DNA of 40,167 nt from Thermoleophilia bacterium (lineage in GTDB: Bacteria > Actinomycetota > Thermoleophilia > Miltoncostaeales > Miltoncostaeaceae), in contig JALOLS010000016.1 in NCBI GenBank assembly GCA_025455865.1, positions 1 to 40,167 on the forward strand, written 5' to 3'. Position numbers and translations under genes: made by a program. Under the pieces are notes generated by a model. The model saw only the letters and a list, made by a program, of their open reading frames with translations, did no database searches and was not told the origin of the DNA. Every line of letters starts with the position of its first letter. The stretch's first letter is position 1. Positions 11,271 to 34,006 of this stretch are shown here, in pieces.

Positions 11271-11698
11271 GGCGCGCGCTCCTCGATGTGAACGTCCTGG
11301 TCGCCCTGCTGGACCGGGACCACGCCGACCACGACCGTGCGATGGAGTGGATCGACCGCGAGATCGCCCATGGCTGGGCGTCGTGCCCGATCACCGAGAA
11401 CGGCCTCGTGCGGGTGATGAGCCAGCCGCGCTACCCGAGCCCGGTCAGCCCCGCCGCGGCGGTCGAGCTGCTCGCCCGTGCGACCGGGTCCGGGCACCAC
11501 GAGTTCTGGCCGTGCGACCTCAGCGTCCTCGACGCCGCGGTGGTCGACCGCCATCGGCTGCACGGCCCGCGCCAGGTCACCGACGCGTACCTGCTCGCGC
11601 TGGCGGTCGCGCGCGACGGGCGGCTGATCACGTTCGACCGGGCGATCCCGCAGAGCGCGGTGCCCGCCGCGCGGGCGGAGCACCTGACGCTCCTGTGA
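11267..11698 (+). CDS. vapC: PIN-domain ribonuclease toxin (VapC-like)
   Basis: A 143-residue PIN-domain protein with all four acidic residues expected for Mg-dependent RNA cleavage: Asp7 (LLDVNVLVALL), Glu44 (ITENGLVRV), Asp106 (VTDAYLLALA) and Asp124 (LITFDRAI). Length and motif order match VapC toxins, in the subgroup with the TENGLVRV motif. RNA target unknown. It begins by GTGA overlap with the antitoxin and ends at a strong hairpin whose stem includes the stop codon, so the pair forms a closed two-gene unit. All key residues are intact, so the toxin is probably functional. Confidence 0.9.
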   Translation: MRRALLDVNVLVALLDRDHADHDRAMEWIDREIAHGWASCPITENGLVRVMSQPRYPSPVSPAAAVELLARATGSGHHEFWPCDLSVLDAAVVDRHRLHGPRQVTDAYLLALAVARDGRLITFDRAIPQSAVPAARAEHLTLL

Positions 11699-11729
11699 TC
11701 CCACCCCGCCGGCCGGGCGGGGTGGGATC
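11697..11729. terminator. Strong bidirectional terminator-like hairpin
   Basis: A perfect 14-bp stem (GATCCCACCCCGCC and its complement) with a 5-base loop GGCCG begins inside the toxin stop codon and ends 9 bases before the converging PKD-protein stop. Confidence 0.75.
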
Positions 11730-11738
11730 CGGCGCGGC

Positions 11739-13112
11739 TCAGCGGGGGGGTGCGGAGGCCGGCCGCACCACGATGGTCCTGCGGGCCACCGCCGACCCCG
11801 CCCGGACCCGGAGGACGTAGCGGCCGGCCCGCGCCGGGGCGCGGAAGCGCAGGGTGACCGTGCCGGGGCGCGCGAGCCGGCGGGCGCGCGCGAGGACGCG
11901 TCCCACGCCTCCGGAGCGGCTGCGCCGGGCGATCGCCTGGTCCAGGCGGACCGGCGCGGGGGCGGCCAGTGGCACCCGGGCGGTCCCCATCCGGCCGGCG
12001 CGGTAGGCCGTGCGGGTCACGATCCGGCCCAGGCGCACGCGCTCGGGCCGCGCCGGCGCCGAGGGCGCCGATGCGGCGGCCGGGGTGACGGTCACCGTGA
12101 AGGGCACGGCCGCGGAGGGGTTGCCGGCGCGGTCGGCCACCGTGACGCTCCCGCGGAAGACCCCCGGGGCGGTGTAGGCGTGCGCCGGGGCCGGCCCGGT
12201 GCCCGTCGTGCCGTCCCCGAAGTCCCACCGCACGGCGGCCGGGTCGATCCCGGAGTCGTCGGGGCCGTTCCCGTCGTCGGCGCTCGGGGAGGCATCGAGC
12301 GCCACCACCGCCCCGGGCGCCGCCCGCACCGCGTCCGCCACGAGGCGCGCCGTCGGGGCCACGCGATCGAGGAAGATCGTCGCCTCGGCCTCGGCGGAGG
12401 GGTTGCCGAAGGCGAAGACGCCGGTGCTCGGCCGCGCGGCGTCGTTCACCCGCGCCCGCACCCGCCGTGGGCCGTCGGGCCCCTCGGCCAGCTGCAGATC
12501 GCGCCGGGCGGAGAACGGGAACGTGCAGGCCGCTCCCGGCGGGCAGATCGGCGAGTCGCCCTCGATCAGCGTCAGGTGGCCACCCGCCAGGCCGCCGGCC
12601 GGGCCACCGGTCGGCGAGGCGTCGGACGCCTGCACGTCCACGACGACCTCGCGCGCCCGGGTGTAGGCGGCGCCGCCGTTCAGGCTGATGCCGACGGTCG
12701 GCGGGGTCGCGTCGATGCGCGTGGTGATCTCGCCCGCGGTGGTGATGACCCCCACCGGCGGCCCGATGTCGTCGGCGGCGCTCACGACGATCAGGTACGC
12801 CTGACCGTCCTGCAGCGCGAGCGTGGTGCGGGTCTGGGTGACCGGGAGGATCTCGAAGGCGGCCGTGGCGAAGTCGGTCGTCCGGATGGCCTGCACGAGG
12901 TACCGGGGGTCGGCGGCCTGCGGGTCGAACTGCGCGGGCTGCCACGCCACCGTGACGGCGGTCCCCCGGTGGAACGCCGGGAGCGGCACCGGGACCGGCG
13001 CCGTGGTCTGGGCGTGCGCCGCGGCGACCGGGCCGAGCAGCGCGGCCGCGGCCAGCGCGGTCCGCGCCGGCCGGCGCCGCCGGGTGGTGCGGGGGGTGGG
13101 GGTCGGGGCCAT
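11739..13112 (-). CDS. Exported PKD-domain protein
   Basis: A 457-residue protein with an Arg-rich N-terminus, hydrophobic stretch and AHA-QTT cleavage area at about residue 34, so secreted. Residues 35-140 form a beta-rich unit (TVAWQPAQFDPQAADPRYLV); about 140-260 look like a Big/Ig-type module (DATPPTVGISLNGGAAYTR); about 265-355 are a PKD domain with the signature WDFGDGTTGTGPAPAHAYTAPG. The basic C-terminal 100 residues have alternating strands ending YVLRVRAGSAVARRTIVV. PKD domains mediate extracellular protein or sugar contacts. ATG 13112 has GAGGAGG 6 bases upstream. A TAGCGT -10 (13163-13168) and a 23-bp dyad (13187-13209) precede it; the same dyad stands before the small exported gene at 16630, so both are probably controlled by the LAL regulator between them. 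Confidence 0.85.
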   Translation of the reverse strand: MAPTPTPRTTRRRRPARTALAAAALLGPVAAAHAQTTAPVPVPLPAFHRGTAVTVAWQPAQFDPQAADPRYLVQAIRTTDFATAAFEILPVTQTRTTLALQDGQAYLIVVSAADDIGPPVGVITTAGEITTRIDATPPTVGISLNGGAAYTRAREVVVDVQASDASPTGGPAGGLAGGHLTLIEGDSPICPPGAACTFPFSARRDLQLAEGPDGPRRVRARVNDAARPSTGVFAFGNPSAEAEATIFLDRVAPTARLVADAVRAAPGAVVALDASPSADDGNGPDDSGIDPAAVRWDFGDGTTGTGPAPAHAYTAPGVFRGSVTVADRAGNPSAAVPFTVTVTPAAASAPSAPARPERVRLGRIVTRTAYRAGRMGTARVPLAAPAPVRLDQAIARRSRSGGVGRVLARARRLARPGTVTLRFRAPARAGRYVLRVRAGSAVARRTIVVRPASAPPR

Positions 13113-13186
13113 CGTCGCCTCCTCGAGGGGAACGGGGACGCCGGCTGCGCCCCGATGAGACGACGCTACGAGGGGGTCCCTCCCCT

Positions 13187-13209
13187 CTCATCATGAGACC
13201 TGATGATCT
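13187..13209. promoter_or_regulatory. Operator-like 23-bp dyad, copy 1
   Basis: The core ATCATGAGACCTGATGAT is an 8-bp inverted repeat with one mismatch and a 2-base centre. The same 23 bases recur exactly at 16691-16713. Copy 1 ends 18 bases before the TAGCGT -10 of the PKD-protein gene, so its centre falls near -42, the place where activators touch RNA polymerase. It lies between the LAL gene stop (13228) and the PKD gene start (13112). Confidence 0.75.
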
Positions 13210-13227
13210 CCGGCCGCGCGGGCCCGG

Positions 13228-16131
13228 TCAGCCCTCCCCCGCCAGGCCCCGCTCGGCCGCCACCCGGGCCGCCTCGGCCCGGTTCTGGACTCGCAGCTTC
13301 TGGAGGATGTGGGTCACGTGGGTCGCCGCGGTCGGCTCGGAGATGTAGAGCCGCTCGGAGATCTGCCGGTTGGTCAGCCCGGCCGCCACGAGCCGGAGGA
13401 CCTCGAGCTCGCGGCGCGTGAGCCCGGCCTGCCCGGACCCGGATCGCGCCCCCGAGACCCTGCGCCCGAGCGCCCGCATGAGCTGCTCGGCCCGCCGGAC
13501 CCAGGGCCCGGCGCCGATGCCGAGCGCGACCTCGCGGGCCGGCGCCACGATCTCGGCGAGGGCGCGGCGGTCCACCCCGGCGATCCCGAGCACCTCCCCC
13601 GCCCCGAGGCGCATCCGGACCCCCTCCCAGGCCCGCCCGGTGGCCTCCACCTCCCCCACCGCGGCCGCCACGTCGGCGAGGTCCGCGGGCTCGCCGGCCA
13701 CGGCGGCGGCGACCGCCCCAGCGTGGCGCGCACGCGGACCCGGGGCGTGCGCGGCCAGGAGCCCGGCCATCGCCGCCGCCCGGGCGGCGTCGCCGCGCAG
13801 CGCCGCCACCTCGACCGCCCCGCAGAGCAGCGCGCCCTGCATCCCGAGCACCGCCGGGGTCGCCTCGGCCACGCCCACCCACGGCTCGATCACCGCCCAC
13901 GCCGCGTCCACCTCGCCCTCGGCGCGCAGCGCCCGCATGAGGCCGAACCGGGCGTCGTCGTCCTGGTTTCCCGCCCCCGCCGCGGCGTGGCCGACCGCCG
14001 CCTGGAGCTCCGCCCGGGCCCGGCCGAGGTCGCCGAGCAGCAGTGCATGCTCGCCGCGCAGGATCGCCAGGGTGGCCCGCTCATGCACCGAGCCGCCGAT
14101 CTCCTCGGCCACCACCTCGGCGGCGTCGAGGAGCGCCGGGACCGGCGCGGGCTCGGCCGCCCGCAGGTGGATGCCCGCGCGCACGAACAGGAGCCACCCC
14201 TCGTCGGCGCGCAGCCCCGAGGCCCGCGCGAGGGCCAGCGAGCGGTCGGCCCGCGAACCGAGGTCGGCCAGGGCCAGCGGCCCGTCCCGGGCGCCCATGG
14301 ACGCCACGTTGGCCTGCGTGATGACCTCATAGCGCCGGTCCCCGAGCGCGCGGGCCACCCGGGAGGCCTCGTCCAGCCGTCCCGCGCCCTCGGCCGTGCG
14401 CCCGGCCTCCATCTCGGCGACCCCGATCACGTTCAGCATCCGCATCCGCTCCACGGCGCCCCGATCCGGGGGCACCGTCTCGAGCAGGGCCAGGGCCTCG
14501 TGGGCGACGGACGTCGCGGCGATCGCGCTGTCGGCGTTCAGGAGCAGCCGGGCGAGCAGCGACATGGCCGACGCGAGGGCGGCGGGCGGGGCGCCGGGCG
14601 GGGGCGCCCGGACGAGGGCGCGCAGGTCGTCGAGGGCCGCGGGCTCCCCCATCATGAACCGCACCCAGTCCGCCCGGGCCGCGGCCTCGGTCTGCCCGTC
14701 CGGGTCCCCGGCGGCCCGGAACCCCTCGCGCGCCGCGGTGAGCAGGTCGAGGGCCTCGGGGCGGCGGCCGACGTCGGCCAGGAGGTTCCCCCACTCCTGC
14801 AGCAGGGCGGCCGGCGGGGGCGCGCCGGCGGGCCCGGCCCACGCCTCGGCCGCCCGGCGGTAGTGGGCGTCGGCCTCGGCCAGCCCGCCCAGCCGCCGCG
14901 CGGCGCGGGCGGCGGCCAGCGAGAGCTCGTGCACCTGCGCGCGGTCGCCGGCCCCGATGGCGTGGGTCAGCCGCTCGTCCAGGGTCAGGTCCACGCCCTG
15001 CTCCGCCGCGATCCGGAGGACCCGGGCGTGGCGGCGACGGCGGTCGGCGGCGACCAGGCCCGCCTCCACGGCCTCGCGCACCAGCGCGTGGCGCACCCGC
15101 ATCCGCGCCGGGTCGCCGGGCACGTCCTCGACCAGGCCGGCGTCGCGCAGCCGCCCGAGGGCGGCGAACAGGTCGTCCTCGCCCAGCCCGGCGACGGCCT
15201 CCAGCAGGGCCACCGGGAACGGGTCGCCGAGCACGACGGCGTCCTCGATGAGGCGGCGCTCGCCGGCCGCCAGCCGGGCCAGGCGATTGCCGACCATGTC
15301 GCGCAGGCTCCAGGGCAGGGCACCCGGGGGTGCCGGGGCGAGGGCGGCGGTGCCGGGATCCAGCCGCCCGGACTCCAGGCCGTCCTTGACCAGCTCCTCG
15401 ACCGCGAACGGATTGCCGCCGGAGCGGCGGGCGACCTCGGCGACCGTCGGCCCGGGGACCGCGACGCCGAGGATCCCGGCGAGCATCGCGGCCGTGGCCC
15501 CCGGATCCAGCGGCCCCAGGACGACCTCCTCGCCGATCCGGCGGCGGGCGAGCTCGCGGCGGAGCACCGGGACCGCCCCGCCCTCCCCCTCCCCCTCCCC
15601 GGGACGGTAGGTGACGAGGATCGCCACCGGCGCGGCGCGGGCGGTCCGGGCCAGGTGCAGCACCAGCGCCCCGGTCGACTCATCGGCCCAGTGGAGGTCC
15701 TCGAGCACCAGGAGCAGGCCGCGCCGACCGCCCAGCGCGACCGCCCAGCGCGTGGCGGCCTCGAAGAGCCGGCCCCGGTCGGCATCGCCGTCTCCGGGCT
15801 CGGGCAGGAGCATCCGGGGGAACGCCGCGGCGCGGGTGTCCGCCGGCGCGGCGGCGCCGGGGCGGGCCTGCCGGTCGGCGCGCAGCGCGTCCTGCACCGG
15901 GCCGAAGGGCAGCCGGACGTCGTGCTCGCCGGCCTGGCCCTCCAGGACGAGCCGGCCGCCGGCCCGGGCCCGGGCGACCACCTCCTCGGCCAGCCGGCTC
16001 TTGCCGATGCCGGCCTCTCCGCACAGGCCGACGAGGGCCGCACCGGGTGAGAGCAGGCGGGCGAGCCGGTCGCGCTCCTGGTCGCGTCCGGCGATCTCCG
16101 GCGCCCGGAGGCGGGAGCGGGGCGCATCCAC
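13228..16131 (-). CDS. LAL-family transcriptional regulator, second of three
   Basis: A 967-residue LAL protein: Walker A GEAGIGKS (38-45), Walker B LLLVLEDLHWADE (about 139-151), a STAND-type NTPase region, a long Ala-rich TPR-like helical middle, and a LuxR helix-turn-helix at the C-terminus (from about residue 904, LTRRELEVLRLVAAGLTNRQ then EPTAATHVTHILQKLRV). ATP-binding residues look intact. GTG 16131 has no ribosome site but a TACACT hexamer ends exactly 6 bases upstream, the pattern of a leaderless transcript; co-transcription from the gene at 16630 (56 bases upstream) is also possible. It sits between two exported-protein genes whose promoters carry identical 23-bp dyads, which are the best candidates for its binding sites. 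Confidence 0.9.
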   Translation of the reverse strand: MDAPRSRLRAPEIAGRDQERDRLARLLSPGAALVGLCGEAGIGKSRLAEEVVARARAGGRLVLEGQAGEHDVRLPFGPVQDALRADRQARPGAAAPADTRAAAFPRMLLPEPGDGDADRGRLFEAATRWAVALGGRRGLLLVLEDLHWADESTGALVLHLARTARAAPVAILVTYRPGEGEGEGGAVPVLRRELARRRIGEEVVLGPLDPGATAAMLAGILGVAVPGPTVAEVARRSGGNPFAVEELVKDGLESGRLDPGTAALAPAPPGALPWSLRDMVGNRLARLAAGERRLIEDAVVLGDPFPVALLEAVAGLGEDDLFAALGRLRDAGLVEDVPGDPARMRVRHALVREAVEAGLVAADRRRRHARVLRIAAEQGVDLTLDERLTHAIGAGDRAQVHELSLAAARAARRLGGLAEADAHYRRAAEAWAGPAGAPPPAALLQEWGNLLADVGRRPEALDLLTAAREGFRAAGDPDGQTEAAARADWVRFMMGEPAALDDLRALVRAPPPGAPPAALASAMSLLARLLLNADSAIAATSVAHEALALLETVPPDRGAVERMRMLNVIGVAEMEAGRTAEGAGRLDEASRVARALGDRRYEVITQANVASMGARDGPLALADLGSRADRSLALARASGLRADEGWLLFVRAGIHLRAAEPAPVPALLDAAEVVAEEIGGSVHERATLAILRGEHALLLGDLGRARAELQAAVGHAAAGAGNQDDDARFGLMRALRAEGEVDAAWAVIEPWVGVAEATPAVLGMQGALLCGAVEVAALRGDAARAAAMAGLLAAHAPGPRARHAGAVAAAVAGEPADLADVAAAVGEVEATGRAWEGVRMRLGAGEVLGIAGVDRRALAEIVAPAREVALGIGAGPWVRRAEQLMRALGRRVSGARSGSGQAGLTRRELEVLRLVAAGLTNRQISERLYISEPTAATHVTHILQKLRVQNRAEAARVAAERGLAGEG

Positions 16132-26657: not shown

Positions 26658-26753
26658 ATGCGCCGTCGCCTGATCGCCCTGTACGTCTCCGCCGCCGGCA
26701 TCGCCACCCTGGCCACCGCGGCCGCCGCGTCGGCGGCCAGCTGGATCAAGTAG
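26658..26753 (+). CDS. 31-residue exported peptide
   Basis: A short frame preceded by GAGGAG 6 bases before ATG 26658, one of the better ribosome sites in the window. The product is almost wholly a signal peptide: an MRRR start, a hydrophobic core (LIALYVSAAGIATLATA) and an AxA cleavage area, leaving only a few residues such as ASWIK or SWIK after processing. That layout is seen in secreted peptide signals, but also in decayed exported genes. Its stop overlaps the stop of the converging third LAL gene by 8 bases. No homologue is recalled. Coding is supported by the ribosome site and the coherent signal peptide. Confidence 0.6.
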   Translation: MRRRLIALYVSAAGIATLATAAAASAASWIK

Positions 26754-29460
26754 GGGGCGCCCCGAGGGCGGCGTGGCCGGGCGCGATCCCGGCCACGCGC
26801 CCGGCTCCCGCGCCGGACAGGTCGCCGTCGGTGATGAGCCCGCGCTCGCGGGCCACGTGCACCGCGGCGGTGCGGGTCGACACCCCGAGCCGTGCGAACA
26901 CCCGGGCGACATGCCGGGCGACCGTGCGCTCGCTGATGAACAGGCGCTCGCCGACCTCTCGGTTGGTCAGCCCCATCGCGATCCCCGAAAGCACCTCGAC
27001 CTCGCGGGCCGAGAGCGCGGTGCCCGGCGCCGGCGCCGACGAGGCCCCGCGCGAGGGGACCCGCCGGCCGCGGCCGCGGAGCGCCGCCTCGGCCCGCTGA
27101 CGCCAGCCGCCGGCGCCCATCGCCTCGAACGCCGCCCGGGCGTGCATGAGGTCATCCTCGCCGGCCGCCCCGGCGTCGCGGTCGAGCCCGGCCTGCAGGA
27201 GGGCCCAGGCCGCCCACCAGGCCATGCCGAGGGCCTGCAGCCGGTCGGCGGCCTCCCGGGACGCCGCGGCCCCGCCACCCGAGAGCCGCGCATGGGCGAG
27301 CGGCAGGAACGCCGCGGCGAGCGTGCCCCCGCCCGCGGCCAGGCGCGCGAGGGCGTCGGCGCACGCCCGGGCGGTCCGGTCGTCGCCGGCCATGACCCCG
27401 GCGGTGAGCAGCGGCGGGGCCAGCAGGCGGTCGTCGGTGGCCGACCACATGCCGAGCGCGGCGCCCGCGACGGCCCTGGCCTCCCTCCGCTGGCCGAGGG
27501 CGGCCGAGGCGAGGGCGTGACCGGTCGCGATCCCGGCGAGCTGCTCGAACAGGGTGCGGTCCAGCGTGGCCGCCCCGGCCAGGGCGTGCGAATGCTCCAC
27601 CGCGGCCTCCAGCCGCCCCTCGGCGACCAGAAGCCAGGCGAGCGGCGGGTCGGCCGGGGTCGGCGAGGGCAGGCCGATCGCCTCCCACCCCGCGGCCGCC
27701 TGCTCGAGGCGCTCCCGGGCGCCCTCGAGGTCGCCGAGCGCGGCGAGGGCCTCGCCCAGGTTGCCGAGCAGGACCAGGCGGTGCTCCTCCACCCCGGCCT
27801 CGGCGGCCCGGGCGATCCCCTCGCGGGCGATGCGGGCGGCGGCGGCGGGCTGCCCGGCGCCGAGGAGCGCGTGGCTCTCGTGGATGGCCGCGAACGTGGC
27901 GTTCCGCCGGCCGCCGGCGCCGGCCGCCTCGCGGCGGGCCGTGCCGAAGGCCTCGAGGGCCTCGCCGAGCGCGCCCGCGCCCGACCGCGAATGCCCCCAC
28001 ACCACCAGCGCACGGGTGGCCGCCTCGTGGGCGCCGGCCGAGGTGGCATGCCGGCGGGCCTCGGCGGCCAGGACCGTCGCGCGGCCGTGCCGCGACATCA
28101 TCGCCGACATGTGCGCGGCCGTCGCCAGGGCCTCGGCGCGGGCGGCGCCGACCCCGGGCGCGTCGGCGGCGGCGGCGAGGGTGGCGAAGGCCGCCTCGTG
28201 CTCGCCCAGGCGCCAGCGGGCCGCGGCGGCCTCCTCCGCGCAGGCGAGCGCGCCGCGCCCGTCACCCGCGGCGGCCAGACGGCGGCCGGCCCGCTCGAGC
28301 GCCTCGGCGCCCTCGGCCCAGGCCCCGAGCCCCACCAGCGCGAAGCCCCGCTCGGCGGCGGCGGCGGCCCGGCCCGGGGCGTCGGCGGGCGCCCACGACA
28401 GCGCCCGGCCGGCGTGGGCGAGGGCCGCGGCCGGGTCCCCCGCGGCGCGCGCGGCGGCGGCGGCCCGGGTCCCGAGCACGAGCACCGCATCGGGGTCGGC
28501 CGCGCCGACGGCGTGACGGACGAGGTCCTCGGCGCCGTCGCCGAGCGCCCGCCCGGCATGGAGCGCCGCCTGATGGCGGCGGCGGCGTGCCGAGCGCCCC
28601 TCCCCGGCGGCCAGGGCGGCCAGGGCCAGCGGGTCGGCCACGCGCCAGGCCAGGGGTCCCGGCGCCGGGTCGGGGGCGATCAGGCCGGCCGCCGCGATCT
28701 CGTCGAGCCGGTCCTCGACCCATGCCGCGCCCATGCCGGACAGGCGGGACAGGCGGGCGGCGGTGATGCGGGGCGGGGCGACGGTGAGCCAGCGGGCGAC
28801 CTCGCGGGCACCGGGGGCCAGGGCGCCGAGCGGGGCCAGCGCCCGCGCCGCGAGGTCCGGCGGCACCGGGAACGGCGCGTCGCCCCCGGGCCACCGGTGC
28901 GCGGCCCGGGCCAGGCAGACCAGCCGCCCGGCCAGACCGGCGCCCAGATCCAGCACCCGCCGGGCGGCGTCGGGGTCGAGCCCCGGGGCCGCGGCGGCCA
29001 CCAGCGCGCGGGCGTCGTCCGGCCCGAGCACCCCCGCCTGAGCGACCACGCCGGTGCCCGGGTCGGCCGCGAGCACGGCCAGCGCGACGGTCCCGCTGCC
29101 GGCGAGGGCGATGCGCAGCGCCCGGGCGTCGGCCGTCCCGATCTCGCCGGCGAGCAGGGCCACCGGGCGCAGCCGACCGGCCCGCACGGGGTTCGACGGC
29201 AGGCCGGCGTCGTCCAGCCCCCGGCCGACCCGGATGAGCGCCGGGGCCGGCCCGGCGGGGACCCCGACGACCCGCGCGCCGTGCTCGGCCAGCGCCGCCG
29301 CGGCCTCCTCGACCAGCCGGTCACGACCGGCGCCGTCCGGCCCCACCACGGCGACCAGCCCGGGCTGGGTCAGGGCGCCGGCGACGAGGGCGTCGACGAT
29401 CCCGTCGCGCCCGGTCAGGGCGGGATCGCGCAGACCGCGGACGGCTTGGGGGGCCGACAC
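26746..29460 (-). CDS. LAL-like transcriptional regulator with degenerate P-loop, third of three
   Basis: A 904-residue protein. LTGRDGIVDALV marks the STAND-type N-terminus, but the expected Walker A reads GPDGAGRDRL (about 40-49): the essential Lys is Arg and the Ser/Thr is Asp, and no clear Walker B follows. The middle is a long Ala-rich helical-repeat region, and the C-terminus has a full LuxR helix-turn-helix (LSAREVEVLSGIAMGLTNRE then ERTVARHVARVFARLGV) plus a 45-residue tail. It should bind DNA but probably not hydrolyse ATP. Start: GTG 29460 sits 7 bases after TAGGAT; an in-frame ATG at 29469 overlaps that hexamer and is less likely. It diverges from the EAL gene and converges with the 31-residue peptide gene. 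Confidence 0.85.
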   Translation of the reverse strand: MSAPQAVRGLRDPALTGRDGIVDALVAGALTQPGLVAVVGPDGAGRDRLVEEAAAALAEHGARVVGVPAGPAPALIRVGRGLDDAGLPSNPVRAGRLRPVALLAGEIGTADARALRIALAGSGTVALAVLAADPGTGVVAQAGVLGPDDARALVAAAAPGLDPDAARRVLDLGAGLAGRLVCLARAAHRWPGGDAPFPVPPDLAARALAPLGALAPGAREVARWLTVAPPRITAARLSRLSGMGAAWVEDRLDEIAAAGLIAPDPAPGPLAWRVADPLALAALAAGEGRSARRRRHQAALHAGRALGDGAEDLVRHAVGAADPDAVLVLGTRAAAAARAAGDPAAALAHAGRALSWAPADAPGRAAAAAERGFALVGLGAWAEGAEALERAGRRLAAAGDGRGALACAEEAAAARWRLGEHEAAFATLAAAADAPGVGAARAEALATAAHMSAMMSRHGRATVLAAEARRHATSAGAHEAATRALVVWGHSRSGAGALGEALEAFGTARREAAGAGGRRNATFAAIHESHALLGAGQPAAAARIAREGIARAAEAGVEEHRLVLLGNLGEALAALGDLEGARERLEQAAAGWEAIGLPSPTPADPPLAWLLVAEGRLEAAVEHSHALAGAATLDRTLFEQLAGIATGHALASAALGQRREARAVAGAALGMWSATDDRLLAPPLLTAGVMAGDDRTARACADALARLAAGGGTLAAAFLPLAHARLSGGGAAASREAADRLQALGMAWWAAWALLQAGLDRDAGAAGEDDLMHARAAFEAMGAGGWRQRAEAALRGRGRRVPSRGASSAPAPGTALSAREVEVLSGIAMGLTNREVGERLFISERTVARHVARVFARLGVSTRTAAVHVARERGLITDGDLSGAGAGRVAGIAPGHAALGAPPT

Positions 29461-29467
29461 GGACCCC

Positions 29468-29473
29468 ATCCTA
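29468..29473 (-). promoter_or_regulatory. -10 element TAGGAT for the third LAL gene
   Basis: TAGGAT on the minus strand, 7 bases, GTG 29460. It decides the start in favour of GTG 29460 over ATG 29469, which would lie inside the promoter hexamer. Confidence 0.5.
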
Positions 29474-29688: not shown

Positions 29689-31824
29689 ATGGCGGTCGCG
29701 ATCGCCTTCTCGGCCTGGATGCTCTGGTTCGCCGGGCTGGCCGGGGACGCTCCGACCGCGACGGTCATGGTCGCGTCCTACAGCCTGACGGCCGCCCTGG
29801 CGGCCGTGCTCGCGGCGCGGGCCGGCCGGCGGGCGCGCGGGCTGCAGGCCAGGGTCTGGCGCCTGTTCGCCATCGGCCTGGCCTGCTGGGCCTTCGGCGC
29901 CATCCCGGTGCTCGGGTGGTTCGCCGCCGGGGGGAGCCCGTGGGACCTGCCGTGGTGGAGCCAGCTGCCCTACCTGGCCGCCTACCCGGCCTGGTACCGG
30001 GCGCTGTGGCTCATGCGCCAGCCGGTGCTCGCCGCCTCCCGCCGGGCGCGGCTCGAGACCTGGGGCATCGAGCTGGCCGCGTTCACCGCGGCGGGGATGC
30101 TGGTGGTGGCGATCCTGTGGAACGACACCCTCGACCTCGGGCAGAACCTGACCTACCTGCTGCCCTCGGTCCTGGACCTGCTGCTGGTCGCCGGCCTCTA
30201 CGCCGCCACCCGCCGGGTCCCGATCACCCGCACCACCGCCCACGCCTGGCTCGCCGGCGCGTTCGCGACCCTCTGGCTCACCGACACGATGGCGAACTTC
30301 CTCATCCCCCGGGCGCACAAGATCGCGACCGGGTTGGTGCTGCTGGGCTACGTCATCCCGATGGGGCTGATGGCCGTCGCCGCCACCCGGCCCATGCGCA
30401 CCACCGAGACCCGGGCCGCGCTCGGGCGCTCGTCGGTCGCCGTCGCCGTCGTGGCCCTGGCGCTGGTCGCGCCGGCGGGCGCCCTGGTCGAGGGCCCGGC
30501 CCGGTGGCTGGCCTGGGGCATCGGCCTGCTCGTCGCGCTGTGGCTGCTCGAGGCGACCAAGCGCGGGGCGGCCGCCGAGACCGACCCCCTCACCGGCTAC
30601 CTCGAGGGGCCCCCGTTCGAGCGCTACCTGGCCGGGATCATCTCGGCGGCGGCCCCGGAACGGCCGGCCTCGCTCCTGGCCATCGACCTGCGCGGCCTGG
30701 GCGAGTGGACCGCCGCCAACGGCGCGGGAGCCGCCGATGCCCTGGTCAGCGACGTGACCGGGCGCCTGAGCGGCGCCGAGCCCCCGGGCGGCGCCTGGGC
30801 GCGCCTGGGCCCGGGGCGCTTCGCCTGGCTCGGGATGGGCGAGGGCGACGAGGCGCCGCTCCTGGCCGCCGCCGCCGCCGCCGCGCTGCCCGATGGCATG
30901 AGCGCCCATGTGGGGATCGTGCTGCTCCCGGCCGACGCCGCCGGCGCGCAGTCGGCGCTGGCCGCCGCCGAGGAGACCCTCGCCGCCGCCGGCCCCGCCG
31001 GACGACCGACGCTGCGCTTCGACGGCGGCCGCCTGGAGGGCGTCACGTCCGAGGGCGCGGGGGCGTCGGCCCGGCGCCGGCGCGCGCGCATCGAGGAGGT
31101 CATGGCCCAGCCCGGCGTCCTCCGTCCCGCGTTCCAGCCCATCGCCGAGCTCGCCGGCGGCGGGGTCATCGGGGTCGAGGCCCTCGCGCGGTTCGACTGC
31201 GAGCCGCGGCGCGGCCCCGACCGGTGGATCGCCGAGGCGCACGAGGTGGGCATCGGCCTGGAGCTCGAGGCCGAGTGCCTGCGCCGGGCGTGGTCCCGGC
31301 GGGGGGCGCTCCCGCCCGGCGTGGGCATGAGCCTGAACGCGAGCCCGGCGCTCCTGGTCTCCCCCGTCCTCGACGACGCGCTCGGCCCGGGGTCGCTCCA
31401 GGGCTGCGTCATCGAGGTGACCGAGCACGCCCACGTGACCGACTACGGGGTCCTGGTCGCCCGGCTCGCCGAGCTGCGGGCCCGTGGGGCCCGGCTGGCG
31501 GTGGACGACGCGGGCGCCGGGCACTCCTCCATGCGCCACATCACCGAGCTCAGGCCCGACTACGTGAAGCTGGACCGGAGCCTGGTGGCCGGGATCGACG
31601 AGGACCAGGTCCTCCAGGCGCTGGTCGCCTCCATCGTGACCTTCGCCGAGCGGATCGGCGCCCAGGTGATCGCCGAGGGGATCGAGCGGGTCGAGGAGCT
31701 GCGGGCGCTGGTCGGCGCCGGCGTGGCCCTCGGCCAGGGCTACCTCCTGGCCCGGCCCCAGGCCGAGCTGTCCGACGCGATGTCGGTCAGCCATCCGCGC
31801 TCCGGGGCGGTCCGCGCCGCCTGA
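29689..31824 (+). CDS. Membrane c-di-GMP phosphodiesterase with degenerate GGDEF and intact EAL
   Basis: At least 711 residues. About eight N-terminal membrane helices precede a GGDEF-like domain (TDPLTGYLEGPPFERYL) whose active site reads GPGRF instead of GGDEF, so it is catalytically dead, and then an EAL domain with the catalytic set present: EAL near residue 497 (GVEALARF), the Asn in MSLNASP, Glu in VIEVTEH, DD in LAVDDAGAGHSS, Lys in VKLDRSLV, Glu in IAEGIE and Gln in LGQGYLLARP. It should degrade c-di-GMP to pGpG. The start is problematic: coding-like third positions extend upstream to about 29530 with no ATG/GTG/TTG in frame, while an ATG at 29519 is in another frame. ATG 29689 is the first safe start. 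Confidence 0.85.
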   Translation: MAVAIAFSAWMLWFAGLAGDAPTATVMVASYSLTAALAAVLAARAGRRARGLQARVWRLFAIGLACWAFGAIPVLGWFAAGGSPWDLPWWSQLPYLAAYPAWYRALWLMRQPVLAASRRARLETWGIELAAFTAAGMLVVAILWNDTLDLGQNLTYLLPSVLDLLLVAGLYAATRRVPITRTTAHAWLAGAFATLWLTDTMANFLIPRAHKIATGLVLLGYVIPMGLMAVAATRPMRTTETRAALGRSSVAVAVVALALVAPAGALVEGPARWLAWGIGLLVALWLLEATKRGAAAETDPLTGYLEGPPFERYLAGIISAAAPERPASLLAIDLRGLGEWTAANGAGAADALVSDVTGRLSGAEPPGGAWARLGPGRFAWLGMGEGDEAPLLAAAAAAALPDGMSAHVGIVLLPADAAGAQSALAAAEETLAAAGPAGRPTLRFDGGRLEGVTSEGAGASARRRRARIEEVMAQPGVLRPAFQPIAELAGGGVIGVEALARFDCEPRRGPDRWIAEAHEVGIGLELEAECLRRAWSRRGALPPGVGMSLNASPALLVSPVLDDALGPGSLQGCVIEVTEHAHVTDYGVLVARLAELRARGARLAVDDAGAGHSSMRHITELRPDYVKLDRSLVAGIDEDQVLQALVASIVTFAERIGAQVIAEGIERVEELRALVGAGVALGQGYLLARPQAELSDAMSVSHPRSGAVRAA

Positions 31825-32630
31825 GGCCCGGCGCACGGCCCCAGGCCGAGCGCGTCGAGCAGCGCCGCCTGGCCGCGGACCTGGTCCAGGCACCCCTGCT
31901 CCTCCAGCAGCGCGCCCACCTCGTCCATCGGCCACGGGCCCGAGCCCCGGCGGTCGGTGAACCAGGGCGTCTCGTCGGCCAGCACCAGCTCGCTGACCAG
32001 GCGCTGGGTGACCGGGTCGGCCTGGATGCAGTGCGCCCGCATCCCGAGCTCGGTGGTGCCCATGAGGAGCGCGGGCGCGCCGTACAGCGGCCGCGGCTCG
32101 CTCATGGCGGTGAACCCGAGCAGGCCGGCGTAGAAGCGGCTCTGGCCCGGGGCGACGCTGATGACCACGCGCCCGTCGCGCTCCTCGTTCACGAAGACGC
32201 GGGCGGCGGCCCCCATCAGGTGCCCGGCGATGGCCCGCACGTGGCGGCGCCAGGGGCGGCGGAGGGCAAGCGACCCGCACTCCCACAGCGGCTCGGGCGT
32301 GGCGCGCAGGGCGTCCAGCTCCTCGCAGAACGCCCGGTCCGACGGCAGCCCGAAGGGCCCGTCGGGCAGGAGGGCCATGGCGGCGATCGGCTCGCCCTCC
32401 GCCCAGGCCAGGTAGAACCAGGTGCCCGGGGTCAGGTAGTGCCGGATCATCCGCCGCCCGGAGGGCTGGGGATCCATGTAGCCCGACTCGACGAACCCGT
32501 CGTGGACGATGGCGAGGGCCTCGCGGACGTCCTCCCACCGGTCGCTGACGGTGACGGTGATCTCGGGGGTGCGGGAGCGGCGGAAGCGGCCGCCGTCGAC
32601 GTCGGGGCCCGCACCGATGGTCGTGCTCAC
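31740..32630 (-). CDS. N-acyl amino acid synthase-like protein (FeeM family, GNAT fold)
   Basis: A 296-residue protein. Residues 61-105 read MIRHYLTPGTWFYLAWAEGE, then AAMALLPDGPFGLPSDRAFC, followed by EELDALR, LWECGSLALRR near 116-125 and a later SRFYAGLLGFTAMSEPRPLY then PALLM. This order matches the FeeM-type N-acyl amino acid synthases, relatives of LuxI-type acyl-homoserine lactone synthases that join an acyl-ACP to an amino acid. Acyl donor and acceptor are unknown. GTG 32630 overlaps the stop of the PaaK-like gene (GTGA). The C-terminal 28 codons overlap the converging EAL gene by 85 bases, unusually long, so the natural stop may have been lost and the tail extended. Confidence 0.75.
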   Translation of the reverse strand: MSTTIGAGPDVDGGRFRRSRTPEITVTVSDRWEDVREALAIVHDGFVESGYMDPQPSGRRMIRHYLTPGTWFYLAWAEGEPIAAMALLPDGPFGLPSDRAFCEELDALRATPEPLWECGSLALRRPWRRHVRAIAGHLMGAAARVFVNEERDGRVVISVAPGQSRFYAGLLGFTAMSEPRPLYGAPALLMGTTELGMRAHCIQADPVTQRLVSELVLADETPWFTDRRGSGPWPMDEVGALLEEQGCLDQVRGQAALLDALGLGPCAGPQAARTAPERGWLTDIASDSSAWGRARR

Positions 32631-34006
32631 CGCTCACCCCCGGGATCGAGATACACCGGCTTGCGCTGGAAGTCCGCCCCCGGGTGCCACGGGTAGGCGC
32701 GGCATGCGTGGAGGACGACGGCCGCCGGGACGCCCGCGAGGGCGCCCACGGCGGCGGCGAGGTCACGCGCGAGGCGCGGTGGCGCGTCGGCGGCGTCGCG
32801 GAACTGCACGTGCACGACCGGCCGGCCGGCCGCGGTGGCGAGCCGGAACCGGCCGGTCAGGCGTCCGGCGTCCTCCATCGCGAAGAGGGCCTCCTTGACC
32901 GGCTCGGGCCGCAGCGACCACCCGTCGCCGGCCAGCGCGCCGACCCGCCCCCACACCGCGAGCACCGGGCCGGGCTCGCCGGGCAGGCCGGCGGCGGCCA
33001 GCAGGCGGGCGAGCGCGCCCGGGGCCACGTGCTCGCCCTGGTCGCCGGGGGCGTAGCGCACGAGGGGCACCAGGCGGGAGGCGAGCGTGGTCACCACCAG
33101 CTCGCGCGCGCCCCCGGGCCGGGGCCGTTCCTCCACCAGCACCCGCCGCGGGTCGTAGGCGAGCAGCTCCGGGGCGTAGCCGGGATCGCGCCCGAGGAGC
33201 GCCCGGCGCGCCCGGGGATCGACCAGGAGCGCCCGCGCCACCCGGAGCACCGGGGTCTCGGCGAACACGTGCAGGCCGAGCTCGGCGGCGCCCATGGAGA
33301 TGAGGGCACCCTGGGCCGGGTCCCCGGGGTCGTCCCCGAGCCCGGTGAGCGCGGCGAAGCGGCGGCGCCAGGACTCGGCCACCCACTCGCCGCCGACGAT
33401 CACGTGCATGCCCCGGGGCGCCCACCCGGGCCCCATGGCCGCGGCGCCCTGCTCGGCGACCTCCTTGAGCAGGAGCGGGTCGCCCACCAGGACCACCCGG
33501 CCGCCGACCGGCGCCGCGCGGCGGATGACCTCGAGGACCAGGTCCGGGCGCGTGCCCGGGGTCGCGACGGCCGCGAGCCGGGCGGGCAGGGCCACCCCGC
33601 CGGGGAGGGCGTTCACCAGCAGCCCGGGTGCGGCGGGCCCCACCCCGAGCGCCTCCAGCGAGCGGTCGACCATGCGCCCGAGGGCGCGGCGCTCGGCCGC
33701 CCCGACCGCGGTCACCAGCGGCCGGCCCGAGCTCCCGCTCGAGCTGACCCACTCCGCCGCCGCGGACGCCTCGCCGCCGGGACACCAGTCCGCGGGTGCG
33801 GCGCCGGCGAGGCCGGCGCGGTCGAGCACCGGCACCGCCGCGAGGTCGCGCAGGTCGTCCGGGGCCAGCCCGTGGCGGGCCAGGTGCGCGGCGTAGGCCG
33901 GGATCTCCGCCGCGGCCCGCCGGGCCACGCGCAGGGCGGCCGCCCGCGCGGGGTCCTCCACGGACCGACGGCGCCGGGGGGCCGCCACGGCTGCGTGTGC
34001 GCTCAT
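32627..34006 (-). CDS. PaaK/LuxE-like adenylate-forming enzyme
   Basis: A 459-residue ANL-superfamily enzyme. Key motifs are the phosphate loop VSSSGSSGRPLVTA (87-100), ISMGAAELGLHVFAETPVLR (core), LVPLVRYAPGDQGE (nucleotide-binding Asp) and VWGRVGALAGDG (hinge). The C-terminal lid domain ends ACRAYPWHPGADFQRKPVYL, in the style of phenylacetate-CoA ligases. It should activate a carboxylic acid as an acyl-AMP; the final acceptor (CoA, protein or amine) is unknown. ATG 34006 has an AAGGGGGG/GAGGGG site just upstream and a TAGCCT -10 at 34039-34044. It is the first gene of a two-gene unit with the FeeM-like synthase, suggesting it supplies or modifies that enzyme's substrate. Confidence 0.8.
   Translation of the reverse strand: MSAHAAVAAPRRRRSVEDPARAAALRVARRAAAEIPAYAAHLARHGLAPDDLRDLAAVPVLDRAGLAGAAPADWCPGGEASAAAEWVSSSGSSGRPLVTAVGAAERRALGRMVDRSLEALGVGPAAPGLLVNALPGGVALPARLAAVATPGTRPDLVLEVIRRAAPVGGRVVLVGDPLLLKEVAEQGAAAMGPGWAPRGMHVIVGGEWVAESWRRRFAALTGLGDDPGDPAQGALISMGAAELGLHVFAETPVLRVARALLVDPRARRALLGRDPGYAPELLAYDPRRVLVEERPRPGGARELVVTTLASRLVPLVRYAPGDQGEHVAPGALARLLAAAGLPGEPGPVLAVWGRVGALAGDGWSLRPEPVKEALFAMEDAGRLTGRFRLATAAGRPVVHVQFRDAADAPPRLARDLAAAVGALAGVPAAVVLHACRAYPWHPGADFQRKPVYLDPGGER

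Follow-up and report, generated by a model that had tools for sequence, protein, structure and literature searches.

A PaaK-like ligase and a FeeM-type synthase form a conserved pair beside a membrane GGDEF-EAL protein in Thermoleophilia

The window, a stretch of 40,167 nucleotides from a Thermoleophilia bacterium (contig JALOLS010000016.1), carries on its minus strand two coupled genes for acyl chemistry. The first gene of the pair (32,627–34,006; ATG start) encodes a PaaK-like adenylate-forming ligase of 459 residues; the second (31,740–32,630; GTG start) encodes a FeeM-type N-acyl amino acid synthase of 296 residues. The ligase reading frame ends in GAG CGG TGA and contains the synthase GTG start, such that the stop and start codons share the four bases GTGA (32,627–32,630, minus strand). 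Facing the pair on the plus strand is a gene for a membrane GGDEF-EAL protein (29,689–31,824), recognized by its domain matches, whose 3′ end is convergent with that of the synthase gene and overlaps it by 85 bases (31,740–31,824). Divergent from the membrane protein gene, on the minus strand, is a gene for a LAL-type LuxR regulator of 907 residues (26,746–29,469; GerE match, 3e-16). An earlier note on this DNA had placed the two genes correctly, and the GTGA overlap that it reported is read directly in the sequence, with similar junctions in relatives. The shared promoter that it assumed was not demonstrated: a scan of this high-GC region for sigma-70-like sites gave none. Convergent 3′ overlaps resembling that of the synthase and EAL genes were also seen at two related loci, L028 and L033.

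The synthase matches the Pfam FeeM family (PF21926; E 1.4e-24) with 87.1 bits, well past the curated cut-off of 27. Its AlphaFold model (mean pLDDT 84.5) superimposes on FeeM (2g0b; Z 19.3, 180 aligned residues, rmsd 2.6) and, after FeeM, aligns best with the acyl-homoserine lactone synthases LasI, BjaI, and RpaI (Z about 16). Residue E117 (codon 32,280–32,282, minus strand) is invariant in 14 synthase homologues and aligns with the catalytic glutamate of FeeM, Glu95 by the presumed residue numbering of the structure; the equivalent glutamate is essential in Nas354, as judged by mutation (PMC4897644). Thus, fold, Pfam family, and catalytic glutamate are shared with FeeM, but the window synthase is only about 21% identical to it in structural alignment, has about 90 extra C-terminal residues past the FeeM-like core, and is coupled to a PaaK-like ligase. 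Presumably, the enzyme transfers an acyl group to an amino acid. The premise of the earlier note, that FeeM-type enzymes draw this group from an acyl carrier protein, was too strict: TyzA of Mycobacterium tuberculosis, a FeeM-fold enzyme, takes acyl-CoA (PMC10404671). The CoA-dependent homoserine lactone synthases BjaI and RpaI are likewise similar in fold (Z about 16), and that their acyl donor can be acyl-CoA counts as a further likeness; what sets them apart is that they make lactones from SAM. A crude pattern scan saw no small ORFs resembling acyl carrier proteins around the family loci.

The ligase has no match in Pfam and only weak PaaK-type matches in NCBIfam. Its score against the phenylacetate-CoA ligase equivalog, 21.7 bits against a cut-off of 646.3, rejects the idea that it is phenylacetate-CoA ligase itself. 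Nevertheless, a profile of the ligase family searched against known structures found PaaK (E 3.6e-15); LuxE, a weak match at 1.5e-5 that ranked behind PaaK, was rejected as the closest relative. The ligase model (pLDDT 82.6) aligns with PaaK1 (2y27) over 382 residues (Z 27.9, rmsd 4.2), and with amide- or ester-forming enzymes of the PaaK family at Z about 24. The elements SSGxxG, SMGxAE, PLxRYxxxD, GR...PE, and K449 are invariant in 12 ligase homologues, and the expected subelements of an adenylating enzyme are all present: the phosphate loop (in the window SSGSSGRPL, 33,716–33,742, minus strand); the acidic A5 motif; the A8 region; and a C-terminal lysine. This last, K449 (codon 32,660–32,662, minus strand), is conserved as expected for the catalytic lysine of adenylate-forming enzymes, and is a candidate for that role. 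Compared with PaaK1, NatL2, and ClxA, the window ligase has the same fold over nearly its whole length (Z 24–28) and the same adenylation motifs. It differs from them in lying below Pfam detection and in belonging to a clade with other FeeM-paired ligases and with nitroreductase-linked ligases. Both family assignments made from the sequence alone therefore stand, that of the synthase by its Pfam match and structure model, that of the ligase by its profile match and structure model.

Outside this bacterial family, a phylum-wide search recovered only distant PaaK-like relatives of the ligase. Most distant PaaK-like relatives adjoin nitroreductase-like genes, and no FeeM gene lies within some 10 kb of them on contigs long enough to tell; two distant ligases (L086 and L089) likewise have no FeeM nearby, and no ligase relatives were found in viral contigs. 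A sister branch of the ligase from other Actinomycetota (L090–L096) also adjoins nitroreductase-like genes, with no FeeM within reach, and one of these neighbours is closest to Acg (E 7e-8).

Within the family, ligase and synthase travel together. Among 42 family genomes, FeeM is present in 12, the ligase in 12, and both in 11 (Fisher p 3e-8, kinship ignored); the two genes are adjacent in all 11 pair genomes. The ligase precedes the synthase at every readable family locus. The four-base overlap recurs in 7 of 10 readable relatives; at L029 and L038 the genes share one base (TGATG), and at L032 they are separated by seven. Two genomes are exceptions: G005 has FeeM alone, and in G007 the contig ends within the ligase, its near relative L038 having FeeM directly after the ligase. 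Moreover, FeeM distances rise with ligase distances (r 0.85), and in a sample of 299 Thermoleophilia class genomes FeeM was seen only in this family. Besides the ligase and FeeM, no enzyme is conserved across all genera, so these two would form a complete short pathway. The earlier note had staked its proposal on two points, conservation of the pair and structure models that keep each protein in its family, and both turned out in its favour: the pair co-occurs, adjacent, in 11 of 42 family genomes and also in two planctomycetes (see below). Beyond the LAL gene, two loci carry a gene resembling acyl-CoA dehydrogenases by its N-terminal sequence (L029, 6044–7189; L031, 7345–8520), and an alpha/beta-hydrolase-like gene is common to L024–L026 and L031.

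The conserved unit is larger than the synthase-ligase pair. In each of the 11 pair genomes, and also at L038, the membrane EAL protein is the immediate neighbour of the synthase. It begins with about seven hydrophobic segments, a membrane domain with no match in Pfam, followed by GGDEF and EAL domains. The GGDEF motif is degenerate (GPGRF). The EAL domain matches strongly (7.3e-43), and the nine catalytic positions checked are kept in every copy but that of L027, whose frame is disrupted; from these residues, the protein looks able to destroy c-di-GMP. The membrane domain itself is private: with 42 family and 204 class genomes searched, it occurs in 13 of the 204 class genomes, all from this family. 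These 13 are the 11 pair genomes together with G007 and G008, in both of which the contig stops at the domain, at the place expected for the pair. Two of the pair genomes (G003 and G014) have extra copies of the domain elsewhere. In the L027 copy (11,289–13,646), the frame is lost near the KLDR motif, through either sequencing error or decay.

The LAL regulator, which adjoins the EAL gene in the window, follows the unit less closely. Full-length orthologues (40–49% identity) adjoin the ligase in three other genera, so that the clusters of four genera out of seven include an orthologous LAL and those of the other three do not. With the window's other LAL proteins, similarity is confined to a short segment surrounding the DNA-binding domain. 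The earlier note had pointed to a c-di-GMP phosphodiesterase, a LAL regulator, and a secreted-peptide gene as relevant neighbours. The first is a conserved neighbour of the synthase and the second has conserved orthologues in four genera; no secreted-peptide gene was seen around the relatives' loci, as judged from gene lists.

The pair also recurs in another phylum. A genome scan identified a Phycisphaerales contig (L046) with a full-length ligase relative and an adjacent FeeM gene; an XrtA/PEP-CTERM exopolysaccharide cluster lies close by. In a second planctomycete (L088), the two genes form a tandem, here in reversed order, with a PEP-CTERM protein nearby. In an unrooted tree of 38 FeeM sequences, the ligase-paired FeeMs of L046 and L088 group with each other (100/98) and then with those of the Thermoleophilia family (93/88), support for this deeper branch being moderate. 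Twenty-two other planctomycete FeeMs, including a second one from L088, fall apart from this ligase-paired group, as does the one other actinobacterial FeeM included. As far as the contigs are readable, neither the EAL protein nor the LAL regulator was found beside the planctomycete pairs, so the c-di-GMP link is lineage-specific. Upstream of the FeeM-ligase pair of L088, the second FeeM gene overlaps a gene of the class I/II aminotransferase family, possibly BioF-like (11,945–13,856). For each of two other planctomycete genomes (G675 and G734), 14 FeeM-family matches are listed.

Two known systems invite comparison. The Tyz, Oxz, and Trz clusters for N-acyl oxazolones (PMC10404671, PMC12856293) likewise combine a FeeM-fold acyltransferase with an ATP-dependent carboxylate-activating enzyme. 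However, they use ThiF-type enzymes and a nitroreductase, whereas the window locus has a PaaK-like ligase and no nitroreductase. Neither ThiF-type nor nitroreductase genes were seen in the family-locus gene lists or among the neighbours scanned with Pfam (part of the flank genes), and by this gene content the locus was rejected as an oxazolone cluster of that kind. In the BDSF circuit, the RpfF synthase is encoded beside RpfR, a GGDEF-EAL receptor (PMC6361424). The juxtaposition of signal synthase and GGDEF-EAL protein is the same, a functional analogy. RpfF is not FeeM-fold, however, and RpfR senses through a PAS domain, whereas the window protein has a membrane domain unknown to Pfam. Membership in the RpfF/RpfR circuit was rejected, the window synthase being of FeeM type rather than of the RpfF family. 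A partial literature search found no description of an N-acyl amino acid synthase paired with a phenylacetate-CoA (PaaK-like) ligase, nor of an exosortase with an AMP-ligase.

Together, these results point to a conserved biosynthesis-and-response module, a reading that we favour tentatively, at somewhat short of an even chance. The PaaK-like ligase, whose fold and motifs are those of adenylating enzymes, would activate a free acid as its adenylate and probably hand it on to CoA. The FeeM-type enzyme, with its characteristic fold and catalytic glutamate, would then use this acyl group to acylate an amino acid at its amine, so that an N-acyl amino acid or a comparable amide results. Through the membrane GGDEF-EAL protein, the making or the sensing of that product would be coupled to c-di-GMP breakdown; in over half of the genera that were read, the LAL regulator would couple it to transcription as well. 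For this step the association is observed and a causal role is suggested by it. The arrangement would work like the BDSF circuit, with other signal chemistry and another sensor domain, and the membrane protein may itself sense the product. As the earlier note had surmised, the product of the pair is probably an acylated signal or lipid not described before, one tied to surface or biofilm behaviour. The ligase lineage may provide or modify N-acyl amino acids where other clusters rely on ThiF enzymes.

The ligase might instead act after FeeM and adenylate the FeeM product at its carboxylate; the activated N-acyl amino acid would then close to an oxazolone or be coupled to CoA, an alcohol, or an amine. 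In that case, the ligase would stand in for the ThiF-type TyzB, OxzB, or TrzS of known clusters. Known synthase clusters do pair the synthase with an ATP-dependent carboxylate-activating enzyme that acts on its product, and in the Tyz pathway it is the N-acyl amino acid that a different adenylating enzyme activates (PMC10404671); PaaK-fold NatL2 and ClxA need no CoA to turn adenylates into amides or esters. The sister ligase branch, linked to Acg-like nitroreductase genes rather than to FeeM, points the same way, and TyzC, of the same superfamily as these nitroreductases, desaturates N-acyl amino acids (PMC10404671). But the gene lists of the readable family neighbourhoods include no nitroreductase or ThiF gene, and the ligase is first in the coupled pair at all readable family loci, a weak argument given the reversed order in L088. 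On balance, we consider this order of reactions somewhat unlikely.

Two further readings dispense with sensing, or with any functional link. The product could be a plain lipid or biosurfactant, an N-acyl amino acid for the envelope or matrix whose output the EAL and LAL proteins merely regulate. The planctomycete pairs, with XrtA/PEP-CTERM exopolysaccharide genes beside one and a PEP-CTERM protein near the other, fit such a role, as does the link between N-acyl amino acid synthases and exosortases (Craig 2011, cited in PMC7293339); moreover, other synthases of this type are themselves linked to cyclic nucleotides, examples being PilZ-fused enzymes and the cAMP-activated NasP. By itself, this account leaves unexplained why a private membrane domain should track the pair so closely, and we think it unlikely. 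Alternatively, the genes could be neighbours kept by shared ancestry, with no functional link, as a single family accounts for most loci. Yet the window synthase is merely 33–46% identical to its relatives, the flanks differ and orientation flips, presence and absence of the genes are matched, and a pair with a related FeeM is also present in a second phylum; mere synteny is accordingly very improbable.

The module favoured here has a bolder form: a new actinobacterial cell-to-cell circuit in which ligase and FeeM make an N-acylated signal, an undescribed membrane sensor couples it to c-di-GMP breakdown by an EAL domain in one lineage and an HD domain in another, and LAL provides a second output. 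This form is possible but doubtful. Acyl-type quorum sensing is poorly known in Actinomycetota, FeeM-type synthases resemble quorum-signal synthases, and the literature examined names no receptor for what they make; the synthase, ligase, and private c-di-GMP phosphodiesterase offer a concrete candidate synthase and receptor in this phylum. The favoured module itself is supported by a second lineage: in another actinobacterial family (G377 and G407), the FeeM neighbourhood includes a distantly related membrane-domain protein, with no such ligase nearby. At L137 (633–2837), the related membrane domain is fused to GGDEF-HD, near FeeM; at L138 (2–1012), where the contig ends within the protein, a FadD-type AMP ligase is a further neighbour. 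The related domain matches at 27–28 bits, whereas none of 1000 local hydropathy-preserving shuffles exceeded 8.7, and hhalign gives a probability of 80%. The solitary FeeM of G005, too, adjoins a GAF-GGDEF-HD protein. Finally, at L139 (7367–10,317), a FeeM-type protein is fused to a cyclic-nucleotide-binding domain, and its gene overlaps by four bases that of a patatin-like protein, also with a cyclic-nucleotide-binding domain.
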